Below are positions 4,097 to 34,081 of a stretch of DNA of 64,000 nucleotides, piece by piece. Origin of the DNA: Thermoplasmatota archaeon (lineage in GTDB: Archaea; Thermoplasmatota; E2; DHVEG-1); NCBI GenBank assembly GCA_030619765.1, contig JAUXAU010000001.1, positions 1 to 64,000 of the forward strand, given 5' to 3'. A program made the translations under genes and the position numbers. Under the pieces are notes generated by a model. That model saw only the letters and a program-made list of their open reading frames with translations. It was not told the DNA's origin and ran no database searches. Every line of letters begins with the position of its first letter. The stretch's first letter is position 1.

Positions 4097-4490
4097 ACTT
4101 TGTGTCGTCAACAGTATTGAAGTAGAGATAGAATCTGACAACAGATTAGATACTCCAGAAAAAGTTGATAAATGGTTGAGTAAAATGTCTTATAATCAAC
4201 TTATTGGAATTGTAATGATATGGGATCAAATCCTTAATGCAACGCCTAATATCTTTTTTCCTGATGTGGTGGCTATTCTTGTTGACAGAGATTTGCATGT
4301 TACTCAGAAGGATTCAAAAGAGTTCGGTACAATTGATATTGCAGGTAGATTAAATTACAACTTTTATTTTCCTTCATTTATAATAAAAGATTGGATGCCT
4401 AAAAAGAAAGGGCCGAGTTTGGTTCCCTATTTAGTTGTAGGAGGGATTGGAGTGACATGTGGAATTTTCCTTGCAGCTTTAATAAAATGA
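3984..4490 (+). CDS. Membrane protein, hypothetical
   Basis: ORF, N- and C-terminal hydrophobic helices; start uncertain. Confidence 0.45.
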   Translation: MRKEAKYMWKLNIKNLWKVGLILIMLMGVVPKVIGENKLCVVNSIEVEIESDNRLDTPEKVDKWLSKMSYNQLIGIVMIWDQILNATPNIFFPDVVAILVDRDLHVTQKDSKEFGTIDIAGRLNYNFYFPSFIIKDWMPKKKGPSLVPYLVVGGIGVTCGIFLAALIK

Positions 4491-8301: not shown

Positions 8302-8359
8302 CCTACGACAGCCTTGTTAGGCTGTTTCGTTTGATAACTAATCAAACTCATCAGATAGG
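8302..8359 (-). ncRNA. Type I hammerhead ribozyme HHR-1
   Basis: RC: CCTAT-CTGATGA-GTTTGAT-TAGTT-ATCAAAC-GAAA-CAGCC-taacaa-GGCTG-TC|GTAGG. All three stems pair; GUC cleavage triplet. Confidence 0.92.
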
Positions 8360-9148: not shown

Positions 9149-9209
9149 CCCACTAGCACCAACTTAATGGTGCTTTCGAATAGTTACCAACTATTTCTCA
9201 TCAGGTGAG
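9149..9209 (-). ncRNA. Type I hammerhead ribozyme HHR-2
   Basis: RC: CTCAC-CTGATGA-GAAATAGT-TGGTA-ACTATTC-GAAA-GCACC-attaagtt-GGTGC-TA|GTGGG; overlaps 3' end of upstream ORF (HSPDEK*). Confidence 0.88.
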
Positions 9210-9621: not shown

Positions 9622-9684
9622 CCCACTACAGCTTTTTTAAAAAAGCTGTTTCGATCAGCAACCAACTAATCATCTTCAGGTGGG
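9622..9684 (-). ncRNA. Type I hammerhead ribozyme HHR-3 (variant core CUGAAGA+U)
   Basis: RC: CCCAC-CTGAAGA-T-GATTAGT-TGGTT-GCTGATC-GAAA-CAGCTTTTTTAAAAAAGCTG-TA|GTGGG. Confidence 0.82.
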
Positions 9685-10265: not shown

Positions 10266-10325
10266 CCTACAAGTCACTTAAAAAGTGACTTTCGATCAAG
10301 TACAACTTGATCCTCATCAGGTAGG
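10266..10325 (-). ncRNA. Type I hammerhead ribozyme HHR-4
   Basis: RC: CCTAC-CTGATGA-G-GATCAAG-TTGTA-CTTGATC-GAAA-GTCACTT-ttt-AAGTGAC-TT|GTAGG. Confidence 0.88.
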
Positions 10326-10505
10326 TATTTCTTCTTTAAACCATAATCTTGCATACTCTTTGGGAATTGCAGTTATACGTCCACCACCATAATCAATTTT
10401 ATATGCTGGGATTCTTTTGCCAATTGTCCCTTTTCCAACAACTTTGCCTCTAAGCATGTTGTCTTCGTCAACAATCCAATCACCTATTTCTATTTTTTCG
10501 TTCAT
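10317..10505 (-). CDS. Hypothetical small protein
   Basis: MNEKIEIGDWIVDEDNMLRGKVVGKG...EEIPT*; stop UGA lies inside HHR-4 core. Confidence 0.7.
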   Translation of the reverse strand: MNEKIEIGDWIVDEDNMLRGKVVGKGTIGKRIPAYKIDYGGGRITAIPKEYARLWFKEEIPT

Positions 10506-10528
10506 TTCTTTCTCCTAGAAATAAAATA

Positions 10529-10572
10529 TAGCCCACCAGGGAATCGAACCCCGGTTGTGCTACCAGCAAGCT
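10529..10572 (-). ncRNA. Truncated tRNA-like element (acceptor-like + D-like + T arm, no anticodon arm)
   Basis: RC: AGCUU-GCUGGUAGC-ACA-ACCGGGG-UUCGAUU-CCCUGGU-GGGCU-A; no complementary full 5' acceptor (AGCCCAC) upstream. Confidence 0.55.
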
Positions 10573-10590
10573 TCAAAACTGGAATACTTT

Positions 10591-10761
10591 TTAGTATTCT
10601 GTGACAAGGCAAAGTTTACCATTCTCGTCACAAGAAAGTTTTTTCCGTTCGATGCCATCTGTATCATAGTCAAATACAAAAACTTTAATGCTGTCTTCAC
10701 TCTTAACTACATTCTGGATAAGACCGTTGGAAACACTGATATGTATTTGTTCTGCACCCAT
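10591..10761 (-). CDS. Small hypothetical protein (56 aa)
   Basis: MGAEQIHISVSNGLIQNVVKSEDSIKVFVFDYDTDGIERKKLSCDENGKLCLVTEY; taggaggtt RBS. Confidence 0.7.
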   Translation of the reverse strand: MGAEQIHISVSNGLIQNVVKSEDSIKVFVFDYDTDGIERKKLSCDENGKLCLVTEY

Positions 10762-10784
10762 TCTAAACCTCCTAAAATAAGATA

Positions 10785-10855
10785 CGTTGGGAGTTGGACT
10801 TGAACCAACACCCTTACGGTTAACAGCCGTATGCTCTACATTGAGCTATCCCAAC
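10785..10855 (-). tRNA. tRNA-Asn(GTT)
   Basis: RC: GTTGGGA TA GCTCAATGTAGAGC A TACGG CTGTTAA CCGTA AGGGT GTTGG TTCAAGT CCAAC TCCCAAC G; full cloverleaf. Confidence 0.92.
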
Positions 10856-11043
10856 TATTCAGCAATTTCTCTTGCCACTCTGATTCTTCTTGCAATCCTT
10901 ATTATTTTTTTGTTGTTGTTTTTTCTCCAGAACTTTTCTTTTGCGGCCTCACGAGATAGTCTCTTGTCTCTTTTAACTCTGCCACCTTCAGTTCTGTCCA
11001 ATTCTTCTTGTGCATCCTCAAATGTGTATTTTTCTATTATCAT
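10855..11043 (-). CDS. Small basic protein
   Basis: ORF MIIEKYTFEDAQEELDRTEGG...; stop codon abuts tRNA-Asn. Confidence 0.55.
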   Translation of the reverse strand: MIIEKYTFEDAQEELDRTEGGRVKRDKRLSREAAKEKFWRKNNNKKIIRIARRIRVAREIAE

Positions 11044-11219
11044 CTTTTTTTTCTTCGAAACTTGCTTTTGTTGTTTCGTTTTCGTACTACAGATGAGAAT
11101 CTTTCTCGTGGATTATCAGATGGGTAGATATAATCCCATACTGATCTATTGCGTGTTGACATAGTTGCTAAAGCTAACATTAGTGATATTGAGCTTTTTC
11201 CAGTTGTTCGTTTATCCAT
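11040..11219 (-). CDS. Small basic protein (59 aa)
   Basis: MDKRTTGKSSISLMLALATMSTRNRSVWDYIYPSDNPRERFSSVVRKRNNKSKFRRKKR; aaggagaaag RBS; ATGA overlap with next gene. Confidence 0.6.
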   Translation of the reverse strand: MDKRTTGKSSISLMLALATMSTRNRSVWDYIYPSDNPRERFSSVVRKRNNKSKFRRKKR

Positions 11220-11251
11220 TTTCTTTCTCCTTAGAATAAATTGATGTGATT

Positions 11252-11416
11252 TTATTTAGTTACAAGACAATCACCATTTGTGTTGTATGAATCAAAAGCA
11301 TGCAAGCACATCTGTGCATCTTTACAATGAGCACAAGTAAAATTTTTAAACTTGAATTTGTGCAATCTTTTGTAAAGAAACCAATTTCCCAAAACAAGCA
11401 TTAGTTTTTGCACCAT
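11252..11416 (-). CDS. Small Cys-containing protein
   Basis: MVQKLMLVLGNWFLYKRLHKFKFKNFTCAHCKDAQMCLHAFDSYNTNGDCLVTK; AGGAGG RBS. Confidence 0.65.
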   Translation of the reverse strand: MVQKLMLVLGNWFLYKRLHKFKFKNFTCAHCKDAQMCLHAFDSYNTNGDCLVTK

Positions 11417-11447
11417 ATCTTTTCCTCCTAAAATAAATTTGTGGTTT

Positions 11448-11507
11448 CCCACGAGCAGCTTTTGAAGCTGCTTTCGACTGATCACCAATCAATCATCTTC
11501 AGGTGGG
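11448..11507 (-). ncRNA. Type I hammerhead ribozyme HHR-5 (variant core CUGAAGA+U)
   Basis: RC: CCCAC-CTGAAGA-T-GATTGAT-TGGTG-ATCAGTC-GAAA-GCAGCTTcaaAAGCTGC-TC|GTGGG. Confidence 0.87.
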
Positions 11508-11650
11508 TTAATCCTTTCAACTTTTTTTCCGTTAGGGTAAACACGAAGGGTTTTTTGTTTGTAGTGGACTATGATTGAATGTGCAACCATAGTTGCGACT
11601 GTGACTGCTGCGTGCAAATCTTTGCATTCGTACAATTTTACTTGTTTCAT
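11489..11650 (-). CDS. Small hypothetical protein (53 aa)
   Basis: MKQVKLYECKDLHAAVTVATMVAHSIIVHYKQKTLRVYPNGKKVERINPPEDD*; C-terminus encoded in HHR-5. Confidence 0.7.
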   Translation of the reverse strand: MKQVKLYECKDLHAAVTVATMVAHSIIVHYKQKTLRVYPNGKKVERINPPEDD

Positions 11651-11928
11651 GTGGATTCCTTTTCTATCTCAGCAAGTAGCAATGCTGCTCTTATTGCTTC
11701 ATCATATTTTAGATGTTGCTGTTGGAAGCATTGTACAGTCCATTCCAACACCTTGCTTGGATCAGCAAGGGAATCGTCAACAGAATTTAAATCTGTCAGA
11801 GCATCTTCAAATTTTCCACGATAGCTTTTAAGTTCAGCAATCTGATTATTCAATTTGTACTCAGTGTTGCCAAACCATTCCCTTGCACAAGTTATAGCAC
11901 GATTCCTTTTTAATTGTTTTAAATCCAT
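11647..11928 (-). CDS. Hypothetical protein
   Basis: ORF; taggaggaagag RBS; ATGA overlap with next gene. Confidence 0.75.
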   Translation of the reverse strand: MDLKQLKRNRAITCAREWFGNTEYKLNNQIAELKSYRGKFEDALTDLNSVDDSLADPSKVLEWTVQCFQQQHLKYDEAIRAALLLAEIEKEST

Positions 11929-11961
11929 TTCTCTTCCTCCTAAAAAATGTTTTTGTAGTTT

Positions 11962-12021
11962 CCTACAACAGCTCTAAAAAGAGCTGTTTCGACTGATCAC
12001 CAATCAGTCTCATCAGGCAGG
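11962..12021 (-). ncRNA. Type I hammerhead ribozyme HHR-6
   Basis: RC: CCTGC-CTGATGA-GACTGAT-TGGTG-ATCAGTC-GAAA-CAGCTCTttttAGAGCTG-TT|GTAGG. Confidence 0.92.
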
Positions 12022-12120
12022 TTAGTGTGTTAACTTCCAGCAGATTGTGTAAACAATCTTCCATCCAGGCAAATTGTGTCGTGCAAAGAATTTTGTTAAT
12101 TTTAATTTCCATCCATACAT
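12022..12120 (-). CDS. Very small protein (32 aa)
   Basis: MYGWKLKLTKFFARHNLPGWKIVYTICWKLTH*; AGGAGG RBS. Confidence 0.5.
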   Translation of the reverse strand: MYGWKLKLTKFFARHNLPGWKIVYTICWKLTH

Positions 12121-12159
12121 GATCTTCCTCCTAAAAAATGTTTTCTGGCTATGCCAGTA

Positions 12160-12202
12160 TAGCCGACAAAGGAATCGAACCTTTGCTAACTACCATACGG
12201 CT
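12160..12202 (-). ncRNA. Truncated tRNA-like element
   Basis: RC: AGCCG-UAUGGUAGUUAGC-AAAGG-UUCGAUU-CCUUU-GU-CGGCU-A; 2 nt after the preceding stop codon; no anticodon arm. Confidence 0.55.
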
Positions 12203-12204
12203 TT

Positions 12205-12600
12205 TTAGAGTTTTTTTATTACTCCATTAAGGTGATCAAGAGCTGCATCAAATTTGTTGAACAGTGAAAGCAATTCAACATCTTCAGGGTGCTCGTTTTT
12301 ACAGTCTTCTAAATCTCCGGCTGCATCTTCTAATCCATCAAGTGCATCTTCAATTGCGCTTTTGACGTGGCTTTTGATTTTTGTGATATTCACTTCATCC
12401 ATTTTCTTTCCTCCTAAAGACTGATTGAGAACAACTTTATATTTGTCCGACACATAATTAATTGTCCAAACTAGACATCCATTCTCATCCTCATCTTCGT
12501 ACACTTCAATAACAGCTCCATACGGATTTACGAAGAAATCAACATCAGCTTCGTTAACTTTCTCTGTTTTTTTATTAATAATACGAAACAACTTTTCCAT
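12205..12600 (-). CDS. Hypothetical protein with likely internal start at 12402
   Basis: 131-aa ORF; internal TTAGGAGGAAAGAAA ATG gives a nested 65-aa product MDEVNITKIKSHVK... Confidence 0.6.
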   Translation of the reverse strand: MEKLFRIINKKTEKVNEADVDFFVNPYGAVIEVYEDEDENGCLVWTINYVSDKYKVVLNQSLGGKKMDEVNITKIKSHVKSAIEDALDGLEDAAGDLEDCKNEHPEDVELLSLFNKFDAALDHLNGVIKKL

Positions 12601-12684
12601 TTTCTTTCCTCCTAAAAATGTTATGCAAGGCTAAACTAGCCATAAAATAGCAGAAAAATATATTTCTGCTATTAAATTGATAGT

Positions 12685-13020
12685 CTATTCACACTTTTTA
12701 TTTTTGAAAACAGGTTTGAACTCTACGTGTTCTGCTATGATAACAACATGTTCTCCATTGAACATTCTTTCTGTTGTTAACCTGCCAACCACCCGGACAC
12801 CTTTACCGTCTGTTAAATGTTCTGCACAACTTTTAGCAATTTTTCCCTTTGTCAGAATTTTAAAAAGATGACTTTCTTTTTTGTACTCATTGTCAGCTTT
12901 AAAAAACCTGACTGATTTGATAGTGAATCTGACAGTGAATTCACCAACAGGTTTTGTTTCTGCAGACTCCACTTCACCCTGTAGAGTTCCTTCTAACAGT
13001 ACGGAATTTAAATTATTCAT
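12685..13020 (-). CDS. ssb: Single-stranded DNA-binding protein (SSB, OB fold)
   Basis: MNNLNSVLLEGTLQGEVESAETKPVGEFTVRFTIKSVRFF...GVRVVGRLTTERMFNGEHVVIIAEHVEF. Confidence 0.75.
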   Translation of the reverse strand: MNNLNSVLLEGTLQGEVESAETKPVGEFTVRFTIKSVRFFKADNEYKKESHLFKILTKGKIAKSCAEHLTDGKGVRVVGRLTTERMFNGEHVVIIAEHVEFKPVFKNKKCE

Positions 13021-13056
13021 ATCTTCCTCCTAGAAAAAATTTGTAGATTTTAGTTT

Positions 13057-13117
13057 CCTACGAGCACCTTATAAAAGATGCTTTCGCTTAGTAACTGACT
13101 AAGCTCATTCAGGTAGG
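13057..13117 (-). ncRNA. Hammerhead-like ribozyme HHR-7 (core CUGAAUGA, 1-nt insertion)
   Basis: RC: CCTAC-CTGA(A)TGA-GCTTAGT-CAGTT-ACTAAGC-GAAA-GCATCTT-ttat-AAGGTGC-TC|GTAGG. Confidence 0.75.
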
Positions 13118-13752: not shown

Positions 13753-13812
13753 CCTACAAGCGATCATTTTTGATCGCTTTCGTTCAATGACTAATTGAAC
13801 TCATCAGGTAGG
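13753..13812 (-). ncRNA. Type I hammerhead ribozyme HHR-8
   Basis: RC: CCTAC-CTGATGA-GTTCAAT-TAGTC-ATTGAAC-GAAA-GCGATCA-aaaa-TGATCGC-TT|GTAGG. Confidence 0.93.
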
Positions 13813-14164: not shown

Positions 14165-14227
14165 CCCACAATGCCCTGATTTTTTCAAGGCATTTCGAAC
14201 AGTTACCGACTGCTCTCATCAGGTAGG
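14165..14227 (-). ncRNA. Type I hammerhead ribozyme HHR-9
   Basis: RC: CCTAC-CTGATGA-GAGCAGT-CGGTA-ACTGTTC-GAAA-TGCCTTGA-aaaaaa-TCAGGGCA-TT|GTGGG. Confidence 0.9.
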
Positions 14228-14646: not shown

Positions 14647-14704
14647 CCTACTATCCCTGTTTCCAGGGATTTCACTTGTTTACTAAACAAGATCATCAGG
14701 TAGG
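14647..14704 (-). ncRNA. Type I hammerhead ribozyme HHR-10
   Basis: RC: CCTAC-CTGATGA-T-CTTGTT-TAGTA-AACAAG-T-GAAA-TCCCTG-gaaa-CAGGGA-TA|GTAGG. Confidence 0.9.
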
Positions 14705-14705
14705 A

Positions 14706-14918
14706 TTATCTGTAAGTTGCAACTCCTGTATATCGACAAAATTCTTCTTCTGCCATCTGTTCTATTCTGTTGGCAAGTCGTTCACTCTTTAAAGTTCTTA
14801 AGCCATTTTTCTGTTTTCCAATTCGATGAGCCTGAGCTGTTGATTCTTTTGTTTTTCTAACATCAGCTCTGGAAATTCTTATTCCTGATCTTCTATAAAA
14901 TAATCTTCGTTTTCTCAT
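14706..14918 (-). CDS. Small basic protein
   Basis: ORF; taggaggaagc RBS. Confidence 0.6.
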   Translation of the reverse strand: MRKRRLFYRRSGIRISRADVRKTKESTAQAHRIGKQKNGLRTLKSERLANRIEQMAEEEFCRYTGVATYR

Positions 14919-14930
14919 TTGTGCTTCCTC

Positions 14931-15041
14931 CTAGTATAATAAAGAAAATAAAAATGTGATTCCAAACAGAATTGTTATCATGCCGGTTGACACAATAAAT
15001 CCAATGACTCCTGCAAAAAACCCTTTTACAAAAGTTGTCAT
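14931..15041 (-). CDS. Small membrane peptide (36 aa)
   Basis: MTTFVKGFFAGVIGFIVSTGMITILFGITFLFSLLY; ggaggaag RBS. Confidence 0.55.
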   Translation of the reverse strand: MTTFVKGFFAGVIGFIVSTGMITILFGITFLFSLLY

Positions 15042-15090
15042 TTTTCTTCCTCCAAAGAAATTTTTGACTTGTACAACTTTTTTAATATAT

Positions 15091-15161
15091 CTCCGGAAAA
15101 AGGATTCGAACCTTTACAACAAATTCCAAAAATTTGTGTGCTGCCATTACACTATTCCGAA
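15091..15161 (-). tRNA. tRNA-Gln(TTG)
   Basis: RC: TTCGGAATAGTGTAATGGCAGCACACAAATTTTTGGAATTTGTTGTAAAGGTTCGAATCCTTTTTCCGGAG; loop TTTTGGA. Confidence 0.9.
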
Positions 15162-15195
15162 GAAGGAGGAGGAATTTCAAATCGGTTCCTCTCGA

Positions 15196-15337
15196 TTCAG
15201 ATCAAACAGCCCTGCATCACGTACGGACTAAAATGTCCAAGGAAACATTAATGCACATTTTATCTGAACCTACATCCCTTCATAACTTACAACTACTTCT
15301 CGTACGGCCCAAAATGGCCAAGGAATTAGTTGTGAGT
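15196..15337 (-). ncRNA. Tandem pair of related structured RNA elements in the leader of the minus-strand cluster (strand assumed)
   Basis: Copies 15196-15268 and 15285-15337 share CCTTGGRC-ATTTTR-GYCCGTACG; inner stem GGCC/GGCC vs GGAC/GUCC and outer stems differ but stay paired. Confidence 0.6.
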
Positions 15338-31091: not shown

Positions 31092-31548
31092 GTTTAAAAA
31101 ACTTCATCCGGATGCAAAAACACCAACTCATGCTTATGAATTGGATGCAGGATGGGACTTCTACGCACTAGAAGATATTCAGCTCCCTGCTCTTGGTATA
31201 GGACTTGTGCCTACTGGAATTGCTATTGAGATGCCTAAATCAATTATGATAGAAAAATTTGATGGTGGTGTCGTTAGCTTAATATGTGAAGCACAGATGA
31301 GGCCTCGGAGCAGTCTTCGTTTAAAAAATGTTCTGGTAACATTGGGAACGATTGATGCTGGATACCATGGAGATGTATCTGCTATTGTTGTAAACTATAA
31401 TAGCTTCATCTACACAGTAGAAAAGGGAGAGAAAATTTGTCAGGTTGTTGTCGCACTAATTCCCTTTATAAAGTATAAAGAGGAAAAAGAGTTGAGTACA
31501 TCTGATAGAGGAGAAAAAGGCTTTGGCTCGAGTGATCAAAAGAAGTGA
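31060..31548 (+). CDS. dut: dUTPase
   Basis: HAYELDAGWDFYA, MRPRSSLRLKN, LGTIDAGYHGDVSAIVVN, STSDRGEKGFGSS (motifs I-V). Confidence 0.9.
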   Translation: MLKALSHLTIKFKKLHPDAKTPTHAYELDAGWDFYALEDIQLPALGIGLVPTGIAIEMPKSIMIEKFDGGVVSLICEAQMRPRSSLRLKNVLVTLGTIDAGYHGDVSAIVVNYNSFIYTVEKGEKICQVVVALIPFIKYKEEKELSTSDRGEKGFGSSDQKK

Positions 31549-34081
31549 GATATCACAGGAAATAATTGATGCAGGTGGTGTTGCTGGTCGTAGGTTGACT
31601 GAAGCTGCTAAAAAGGCAGTAGAAAGACCTGGTCGGAAACCAAAGCAAGTTAAAAGCAACTGTGAGATTTGTGGTCTGGGAGAAACAAGTGTTTCTGATA
31701 GTGGTGTGCGCAGAAAAAAAGTTGTTAGCGTGCATTCTAAAGATGTAAGAATAATGCTGATTGCAGAATCTCCAGGAAGTGTAGAAATTGAGCGTAATGA
31801 ACTACTTGTAGGACCTGCTGGACAACTATCAGATAGGATTTTAGAAGATGGGAATCTTCCTAGGGGAGATGTTTTTGTTGCAAACATTTTGAAATGTCGC
31901 CCATTAAATGACAGAGATCCTAAACCTAAAGAAATTAAAGCTTGCTTTCCTTTTTTGCTTGAAGAAATTCGTAAAGTAAAGCCTATAGTGATAATGCCAC
32001 TTGGATCTCCTGCACTTAAAGCAATAACAGGCCTGACAAGTATTGAGCGTTGGGCAGGAAAAAGACTTTATTCAAGGATATATAACTGTTGGATCATTCC
32101 AATGATTCACCCAAGTGCCATTCTGCGTAGAAAGCATCAAACTTTTGACAGTATTTTAGAATGGGACATGTTAGACTACAAGATATCTGTTAAGGCAGTG
32201 AAAGCAGCAAAGAAAAGTCAACATGCTATGAGAAGAATTTTAAAAGTTGATAAGAGATTGGTGGCATCAAAAGAAGAAGCGGCAATGTATTGTAGGCTAT
32301 GTAAACAGGCGAAAGCATTTGCATTCGATTTTGAAACATACTTTGAGTTCAGTGAGTATATGAAGAAAGGTCTTACAAATTTCCCTGGGGATAAAATTGC
32401 TAAAGGTTTGGGGCTTTGTCGCCAGCCTGGCTTTGCAGTGTATATTCCAGAAGAGTTTCTTGATAAACAAATGTTAATGGATTTGTTTAGTTCTGAGAAT
32501 ATAAAAATTGCACACAACTTTAAATTTGATCAAGATGTGGCAGCTGAGCTGGGTATTGAAATAAAGGGAAAGCGGTTTGACACTATGCTTGCACATCATC
32601 TTATAGATGAGAACCTGCCACATGGATTGGATGATCTTGAATGGGTGTATCTGGATAAGGGTGGCCGATTGAATGTTGCAGATGAGTATTATGATACACC
32701 TTATTGGGATTCCATTTCACAAGAAATAATGTGTGATTATTGTTGTGATGACTGTGAAAGCGCATTTTTGTTGTTTGAGAGATTTCAAAAGATTCTAAAA
32801 GAACAGCAACTTGATTATGTGTTTGAGAATATCTCTATGCCTTTAATTGATGTTGTCTCCAGTATGGAAAAGAATGGAGTGTATATAGATCAAGAAAAAA
32901 CACAACGGTTATCTGATTGTTGCACTGAGATTGCTGAGTTAGAACAAACTGTTGTTCACAATGCTGCTGGTGGAGAATTTAATATCAACTCTGGTCAGCA
33001 ACTTGGGAATGTCCTCTACAAGAAACTTCGTCTGCCGGCAAAAAAGACTCCAAAAGGTAACTGGAAAACAGATGCTGATACTCTTGAGAATCTTATCCCA
33101 TTTGATAAATCAAATATTATAAATCATGTCCTGGCTTATAAGAAGCAAAAAAAGATATTGTCAACTTATTGTAATCGCATCAAGAGAATGTTAAAGGATA
33201 GTGGAGATGGGAGAGCTCATTTTAAATATGTACAGCATGGAACTGTAACTGGAAGATTGTCCAGTGGCTTCCATCAATTCCCACGAGACAAGATGATAAG
33301 AGCTCAAATAGCTGCACCTCTTGGAAGGAAACTTATATCAACAGATTTTGAACAGATTGAACTTCGTATTGGTGCACTTATGTCAGGTGATAAAGAGTTG
33401 TTAAGAGCTTTTGAAACAGGTGAAGATATTCATAGATTTATAGCTGCACAAATTTATGAATGTTCTTTGGATGAAGTTACTGATGAAATGCGAACTAATG
33501 CTAAACGATTTGACTTTAGTGTATTCTATGGCGCTGGTGTGGGTTTAATTGTAGAATATTTTGGTGTAAGCCTTGAGAAGGCTCAGAAGTTGTATGATGC
33601 ATTTTTTAATAGATTTAGAAGAGTGAAAGAATGGGCTCAAGAGCAATACGATTTTGTGAGTGAAATGAAATTTGTTGTTGATATTTTTGGTAGACGCAGA
33701 CGATTACCTGCAATAGATAGTGAAAATGAAGGATTCAGGGCAGAAGCAGAAAGGCAATCGATAAATAGCCCGGTTCAGGGTGGGGCTTCTGATTGTGCAT
33801 GTATTGCTTTAATAAGACTTTATGATCGTATCAAGAGAGAAGAATTAGATGCAAAGATTATTGCGTTTATTCATGATGAAATTATTCTTGAGGTGGATGA
33901 TAGTATATCAGATTATTGTTGTAAGCTCGTTAAAGAAGAATGTGAGAGGCCAATTCCTCAAATTGATGTTCCTCTTAAAGTGGACATAAATGTTGTGCAG
34001 AATTGGTGGGATGATCATGAATCTGGCACAAGATGGGATGAATATAAGGATGTAGAAAAGTTGAAAAAATTCTGGAGGTAA
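31523..34081 (+). CDS. Fusion of family-4/5 uracil-DNA glycosylase, 3'-5' exonuclease and family A DNA polymerase
   Basis: UDG: IMLIAESPGSVEIERNELLVGPAGQLSDRIL, NILKCRPLNDRDPKPKEI, MIHPSAIL; exo: FAFDFETYFEF; PolA: STDFEQIELRIGALMSGD, RTNAKRFDFSVFYGAG, FIHDEIILEV. Confidence 0.9.
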   Translation: MARVIKRSEISQEIIDAGGVAGRRLTEAAKKAVERPGRKPKQVKSNCEICGLGETSVSDSGVRRKKVVSVHSKDVRIMLIAESPGSVEIERNELLVGPAGQLSDRILEDGNLPRGDVFVANILKCRPLNDRDPKPKEIKACFPFLLEEIRKVKPIVIMPLGSPALKAITGLTSIERWAGKRLYSRIYNCWIIPMIHPSAILRRKHQTFDSILEWDMLDYKISVKAVKAAKKSQHAMRRILKVDKRLVASKEEAAMYCRLCKQAKAFAFDFETYFEFSEYMKKGLTNFPGDKIAKGLGLCRQPGFAVYIPEEFLDKQMLMDLFSSENIKIAHNFKFDQDVAAELGIEIKGKRFDTMLAHHLIDENLPHGLDDLEWVYLDKGGRLNVADEYYDTPYWDSISQEIMCDYCCDDCESAFLLFERFQKILKEQQLDYVFENISMPLIDVVSSMEKNGVYIDQEKTQRLSDCCTEIAELEQTVVHNAAGGEFNINSGQQLGNVLYKKLRLPAKKTPKGNWKTDADTLENLIPFDKSNIINHVLAYKKQKKILSTYCNRIKRMLKDSGDGRAHFKYVQHGTVTGRLSSGFHQFPRDKMIRAQIAAPLGRKLISTDFEQIELRIGALMSGDKELLRAFETGEDIHRFIAAQIYECSLDEVTDEMRTNAKRFDFSVFYGAGVGLIVEYFGVSLEKAQKLYDAFFNRFRRVKEWAQEQYDFVSEMKFVVDIFGRRRRLPAIDSENEGFRAEAERQSINSPVQGGASDCACIALIRLYDRIKREELDAKIIAFIHDEIILEVDDSISDYCCKLVKEECERPIPQIDVPLKVDINVVQNWWDDHESGTRWDEYKDVEKLKKFWR

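Follow-up and report, generated by a model that had tools for sequence, protein, structure and literature searches.

Anticodon-less tRNA-like elements at phage and archaeal-virus gene junctions, probable RNase P/RNase Z punctuation marks of viral mRNAs

In plant mitochondria, RNase P cuts the t-elements, tRNA-like structures located at mRNA ends, and in mitochondrial polycistronic transcripts tRNA-shaped spacers are excised to free the mRNAs (tRNA punctuation). The features read by RNase P, RNase Z and CCA enzymes are the stack of the acceptor and T helices, the T loop and a GG able to contact it; minimal acceptor/T-stem RNAs are known substrates of both RNase P and RNase Z. Here we analyze two short elements, E1 and E2, that retain the helices of these minihelices and lie at gene junctions of a phage-like contig. 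Functionally, t-elements and tRNA punctuation would be their closest known counterparts. Nothing specific on phage mRNA punctuation by tRNA-like elements was found in the open-access literature searched, nor was a description of a viral class of anticodon-less tRNA mimics in the searchable literature.

The window, i.e. the whole 64,000-nucleotide stretch of DNA analyzed, is a phage-like contig of a MAG and encodes a portal protein, a family A polymerase, an SSB and other phage-type proteins. The polymerase, a DNA polymerase encoded at 31523–34081 (plus strand), is fused to an N-terminal domain of the uracil-DNA-glycosylase superfamily. Relatives of the phage were sought via its DUF932 protein, and none was found in the viral contigs searched or in 99 related genomes. 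E1 and E2 are located inside an uninterrupted block of co-directional genes and are organized as follows.

10529–10572, minus strand: E1, tRNA-like element without an anticodon arm; absent from 200 shuffles
10572–10566, minus strand: E1, acceptor 5′ strand
10565–10554, minus strand: E1, linker with UGGUAG
10553–10537, minus strand: E1, T stem and loop
10536–10530, minus strand: E1, acceptor 3′ strand
10529, minus strand: E1, A73
12160–12202, minus strand: E2, tRNA-like element without an anticodon arm; MFE fold tRNA-like
12202–12196, minus strand: E2, acceptor 5′ side
12195–12185, minus strand: E2, linker
12184–12168, minus strand: E2, T arm
12167–12161, minus strand: E2, acceptor 3′ side
12160, minus strand: E2, A73
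12145–12157, minus strand: hairpin CUGGC-AUA-GCCAG, directly 3′ of E2 and 5′ of the RBS; a feature of the class
12127–12132, minus strand: RBS AGGAGG of the gene starting at 12120
10511–10516, minus strand: RBS AGGAGA of the gene starting at 10505

The initial annotation had reported at both sites a T arm with a complementary acceptor strand about 30–40 nt upstream and no anticodon arm, and both elements are indeed built in this way, the complementary strand lying about 30 nt upstream. In E1 (AGCUUGC-UGGUAGCACAAC-CGGGG-UUCGAUU-CCCUG-GUGGGCU-A), seven of seven acceptor pairs (three of them G-U) and five of five T-stem pairs are formed; in E2 (AGCCGUA-UGGUAGUUAGC-AAAGG-UUCGAUU-CCUUU-GUCGGCU-A), five acceptor pairs are followed by two mismatches (5/7), and the T stem (5/5) can be extended to seven pairs. 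Both share with canonical tRNA (RF00005) an acceptor stem, a 5-bp T arm with a UUCRA loop (fitting UUCRANN) and a GG at the D-loop position. By contrast, they lack a proper D arm as well as the anticodon arm, the acceptor being connected to the T stem by a linker of 11–12 nt. An overlooked complete tRNA, which would have spoken against the initial annotation, was not encountered: E1 and E2 are absent from the ARAGORN output and from the Rfam matches, including those at E ≤ 1, so a full tRNA fold was not missed.

The exact 11-mer GGTTCGATTCC is present twice in the window, in E1 and E2 only, and the combination of a T arm, an acceptor run of at least five and a GGTA linker occurs twice in the window and in none of 200 dinucleotide shuffles of it. 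A covariance model (R1) whose training set included E1 and E2 ranked both at the top in the host MAG, at full length, and gave weak matches in 14 of 293 genomes of the phylum. The MFE structure of E2 is the acceptor plus T-arm fold (−13.3 kcal/mol), while that of E1 is a simple long hairpin (−16.0 kcal/mol), 0.9 kcal/mol more stable than a tRNA-like alternative in which a mini D hairpin of 4 bp is formed.

As also stated in the initial annotation, both elements lie between a stop codon and an RBS. E2 begins 2 nt past the stop codon, and next come the hairpin, AGGAGG and the ATG at 12120 (CUGGCAUAGCCAG, then AAAACAUUUUUUAGGAGG); E1 begins 18 nt past the stop codon and is followed by AGGAGA and the ATG at 10505, the downstream hairpin being absent. 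Inspection by eye for an intrinsic terminator showed UAUUUUAUUU after E1 and a hairpin without a U tract after E2. The leftward gene block (15.2–7.4 kb) contains, upstream of RBSs, two complete tRNAs and eight canonical hammerhead cores, the latter with their stems present and with a hairpin plus RBS downstream.

10785–10855, minus strand: complete tRNA-Asn (GTT), before the RBS of the gene starting at 10761, in a position equivalent to those of E1 and E2
15090–15162, minus strand: complete tRNA-Gln (TTG), before the RBS of the gene starting near 15041
8325–8354, minus strand: hammerhead core, upstream of an RBS
9174–9204, minus strand: hammerhead core, upstream of an RBS
9649–9679, minus strand: hammerhead core, upstream of an RBS
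10290–10320, minus strand: hammerhead core, upstream of an RBS
11472–11502, minus strand: hammerhead core, upstream of an RBS
11987–12016, minus strand: hammerhead core; the predicted 3′ product starts with the hairpin GUAGGAAACUAC, followed by an RBS
13778–13807, minus strand: hammerhead core, upstream of an RBS
14193–14222, minus strand: hammerhead core, upstream of an RBS

The predicted 3′ products of the hammerheads start with a hairpin (e.g. GUAGGAAACUAC), which is followed by an A-rich stretch and AGGAGG. Hammerheads, tRNAs and E1/E2 are all found at junctions before RBSs and therefore constitute three possible cutting devices in equivalent positions, which supports the earlier suggestion that the elements act as alternatives to ribozymes. 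E1 and E2 are not hammerheads themselves: the CUGANGA...GAAA core is absent from both and present elsewhere in the operon. They share with the junction hammerheads of phages the same position and, for E2 but not E1, the same kind of downstream hairpin and RBS, but they have no catalytic core and would need host enzymes.

Like t-elements, E1 and E2 display a tRNA-like fold at an mRNA junction, i.e. a tRNA mimic outside translation and a presumed substrate of tRNA processing. What sets their class apart from t-elements is that it is viral, that a genome carries many copies, placed at one gene junction after another, that a 5′ hairpin often comes next and that the anticodon arm is lacking; its processing is predicted. 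Two complete tRNAs of the window are placed like the spacers of mitochondrial tRNA punctuation, whereas the mimics cannot decode, occur in phages and archaeal viruses, and are intermixed with hammerhead ribozymes. Compared to minihelix substrates, the class is natural, keeps a GG-containing linker and would be used in cis between genes. The 3′-terminal tRNA-like structures of plant RNA viruses were discarded as a match, E1 and E2 being internal to a DNA phage operon and not at the 3′ end of an RNA genome.

Several other leader features were noted. Two more hammerhead-like junction sequences, outside the eight (about 14660–14710 and 13055–13115, minus strand), have variant cores in which U residues flank stem II ahead of GAAA (CTGAATGAG). 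At 12618–12700 (minus strand), an apparent intrinsic terminator (AATAGCAGAAATATATTTTTCTGCTATTTTAT) precedes an isolated hairpin (GGCTAGTTTAGCC) and AGGAGG, a 5′ hairpin design as at E2, with no recognized cutter upstream. Upstream of tRNA-Gln (15170–15330, minus strand) lie two similar leader repeats, GGACATTTTAGTCCGTACGTGATGCAG and GGCCATTTTGGGCCGTACGAGAAGTAG, whose hairpin changes compensate. Among loci L293–L322, several other viral contigs have hammerheads that precede a GTRGGAAACYAC hairpin and an RBS, with multiple occurrences in L304, L306 and L318.

E1 and E2 are best explained as members of a widespread class of virus-encoded tRNA mimics found in many unrelated viruses of bacteria and archaea. 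Pattern scans revealed elements built in this way in many uncultivated phages, in a number of cases with several per genome, as is often so. The first scan of viral contigs required TGGTAG and a T arm 4–16 nt apart, with acceptor pairing and the absence of a tRNA call as filters. L014/L157 has more than 10 elements on one contig, at successive gene junctions, and L050 has three, of which two follow the members of a duplicated gene pair, one each, while the third follows the gene that comes next. The second scan yielded elements at five junctions of L232 (ORFs checked), three in L221, two in L211 and singles elsewhere; in L014, L050 and L232, the multiple copies are spread over consecutive gene junctions. 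Comparison of L014, L232, L221, L050 and L349 with phage records by BLAST returned no matches.

Since GGTAG-anchored scans also match the variable loops of class II tRNAs and chance sequences, the scan counts were checked against permuted acceptors. In the fetched loci, T arms not belonging to a tRNA have an acceptor partner at a linker of 9–17 nt about three times as often as with permuted acceptors. In 12 element-bearing sources, 51 of 52 such T arms have an acceptor partner (14 expected), which is to be read as nearly every T arm being an element because some sources were picked for paired elements; the one T arm without a partner belongs to the known Serpecor1 attP. A hairpin lies directly 3′ of 44 of 65 short-class elements (11 expected), and most elements are directly 3′ of one gene and 5′ of the next. 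An SD-led gene was detectable within 100 nt downstream of only a minority of unselected short-class elements, namely 33% in the sense orientation, compared to 8% in antisense and 7% at random places. CCA is encoded by 2 of 53 unselected short-class elements and by about half of the ARAGORN tRNAs of the fetched loci.

The short-class stack is not a perfect 7+5-bp tRNA stack, as pair 7:66 is formed in only 46% of cases and −1:73 is over-paired; a perfect 7-bp acceptor was accordingly rejected as a rule for the class. The mini D hairpin that E1 can form was likewise rejected as a class feature (18 observed, 16 expected, no excess over chance). As for the D-loop-like GGUAG described in the initial annotation, a GG-containing piece is kept class-wide, but GGUAG is not invariant: the haloviral elements have GGCG instead, and only GG is widely common.

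The excess of acceptor partners is also observed at linkers of 24–29 nt, which defines a further class, in which the D arm is complete and the anticodon arm is missing. A scan for this class produced at least 101 unique matches; ARAGORN calls none among the matches listed, and 74 of the 101 unique matches listed pair at 6 or 7 of 7 acceptor positions. The D-armed elements tested pass the RF00005 gathering score (38–52 bits). An SD-led gene follows within 100 nt in 27% of cases in sense, 15% in antisense and 10% at random places, a weaker contrast than for the short class. Lactobacillus phage 3-SAC12 provides a cultured example, one of its elements being labelled 'tRNA-OTHER', pseudo, in the record. 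In ten other loci (L348, L357, L373, L378, L062, L422; L342, L356, L377, L381), the D arm of tRNA genes is separated from the anticodon-stem/T-arm remainder by an extra T-arm-like hairpin plus about 40–60 nt (motifs GCCCATCCCTTCGGGGTTCGGCGTGACTCTGGATACA and CCATACGAAAGTATGAGGTGTGTAGGGT); this segment is possibly an unknown mini-insert or intron.

Covariation on alignment A5 is partly circular because several members were picked by acceptor pairing. The haloviral homologues, which were collected by sequence similarity to HF2 and not by pairing, are free of this problem. Among cultured haloarchaeal viruses, Serpecor1 and HF2 each have two short elements at gene junctions (the two of HF2 being homologous), unannotated in the record and each followed by a hairpin and an ATG; the gene annotated as 'tRNA-like' in HF1/HF2 corresponds to attP. 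Homologues of the HF2 elements were found by BLAST in 41–49 records, including those of the tailless viruses SH1 and HCIV-1 and of HHTV-2 and HRTV-27, which are tailed, as is the HF2 group. In nine distinct homologues, the acceptor and T helices are paired in 95% of cells (44–60% in slid controls) and show 19 double-sided changes, and 0 of 500 shuffles reach the observed covariation. The downstream hairpin covaries too in the HF1 group (5 sequences). The label 'truncated' given initially to the elements is too weak, since compensatory changes maintain them. In HF2, gene junctions are also occupied by an annotated hammerhead and by a tRNA-Pro that is atypical, and the hammerhead, tRNA and short elements of this virus are the same trio of devices as in the window.

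Given the retained features read by tRNA enzymes, the placement at junctions and the parallel with hammerheads, cutting by the enzymes that process tRNA 5′ and 3′ ends, as proposed in the initial annotation, is the most economical reading. Structure, covariation, placement, the downstream hairpin and the equivalence of positions are observed; from them we infer the following cleavage events, enzymes and stabilization of the mRNA. Host RNase P would cut the 5′ end of the mimic within the polycistronic viral RNA, and RNase Z (or a 3′ processing nuclease) would cut after position 73. These cuts would free the mimic, leaving an upstream mRNA that ends just past its stop codon and a downstream mRNA with a new 5′ end shortly before the RBS, often bearing a stabilizing 5′ hairpin. 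The mimics would thus have retained the acceptor/T-arm coaxial stack, the T loop and a GG that can dock in it, and dropped the decoding parts; hammerheads and complete tRNAs would play the same role at the other junctions of the operon. That E1 and E2 are RNase P/RNase Z punctuation marks of mRNA, interchangeable with hammerheads and whole tRNAs, is the reading we favor, with somewhat more confidence than doubt. The RNase P/RNase Z mechanism is probable but not proven, because of a 5′ end mapped inside an HF2 element and of an element array with few ORFs in L349, both considered below. The competing hairpin of E1, the imperfect stack of the short class and the minority share of unselected elements with an SD-led gene downstream also speak against it.

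The HF2 5′ end, T-4384, was mapped by primer extension and called a TSS by its authors (PMC8707807). It falls inside the unannotated element 4375–4415 (AF222060.2, locus L461) and matches neither predicted cut, and no other experimentally mapped 5′ end was found close to an element of this kind; T-4384 deserves re-examination as a start site, a processed end or an RT-stop end. Its position would suit tRNA-like or hairpin structures that remain uncleaved in 5′ UTRs and protect mRNA ends or modulate translation, the tRNA likeness reflecting binding, not cutting. The conservation of the downstream hairpins and the ability of the 3′ acceptor strand of E1 and E2 to pair with the linker instead are also in line with this explanation. 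However, the acceptor partner is what covariation tracks, most elements directly follow one gene and precede another, and their positions are shared with self-cleaving ribozymes and tRNAs of the same operon, and we consider uncleaved structures unlikely.

The array of L349 comprises about 13 short-class elements and one D-armed element, most with a hairpin, in about 2 kb with few ORFs.

604–2782 on the reverse-strand ruler (forward 10701–12879): L349 array

Here mRNA punctuation cannot be the sole role of the elements, and small-RNA production or a decoy role fits better. (Within the same 13.5 kb there are also TnpB-like ORFs, IscB-like ORFs and a HEARO RNA matched by Rfam.) More generally, the elements, alone or with the hairpin, could be small stable RNAs acting as decoys or sponges for defence tRNA nucleases or for tRNA-processing enzymes. 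Both tRNA-targeting defences and phage tRNA evasion have been described, the elements are multi-copy, and a decoy without an anticodon would resist anticodon nucleases. Yet the usual placement is one element per gene junction, before an RBS, encoded CCA is rare, and the great diversity of acceptor sequences makes a single decoy target unlikely. As a general explanation, decoys seem to us slightly less plausible still than uncleaved structures.

Decaying tRNA pseudogenes or attP remnants are very improbable. The sequence is tRNA-derived, and HF1-group viruses do have a partial tRNA-Thr attP (PMC8707807) and a partial tRNA-Arg from which 28 nt are deleted (PMC7230728). Against this stand the compensatory changes, the many junction copies per genome and the fact that the Serpecor1 attP is precisely the one T arm lacking an acceptor partner. 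For the present host, an attP or host tRNA remnant was rejected: in the host MAG (88.8% complete), the last 21 nt of either element match, with at most three mismatches, nothing except those of the other, and show no identity to a host tRNA 3′ end. Equally improbable are DNA-level elements marking promoters or TSSs, as HF2 intergenic repeats do, with an incidental RNA structure: AT-rich promoter-like sequence adjoins both HF2 elements and a TSS was called inside one, but the covariation is specific to the RNA-strand fold, the sequence upstream of the SH1 and HCIV-1 homologues is GC-rich, and the genes around E1 and E2 form one unbroken block in the same direction.

Returning to punctuation by tRNA mimics, its broadest form is that bacterial and archaeal viruses, with or without tails, independently employ a dedicated RNA class, tRNAs without an anticodon arm (and often without a D arm) as cis-acting RNase P/RNase Z cut marks, interchangeable with hammerheads or whole tRNAs, and so produce mRNAs capped by a 5′ hairpin; on this proposition we are evenly divided. 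It can be tested directly in cultured systems, namely HF2, SH1 and Lactobacillus phage 3-SAC12. Annotation tools skip such elements or label them 'tRNA-OTHER' or pseudo; if the reading is true, a function would be offered for some of the tRNA-like features of viral genomes, and the elements would represent compact natural RNase P/RNase Z modules. tRNA-mimic punctuation would then process many operons of phages and archaeal viruses, and the junction hammerheads would share with it a common purpose, i.e. the production of mRNAs with defined, hairpin-protected 5′ ends.
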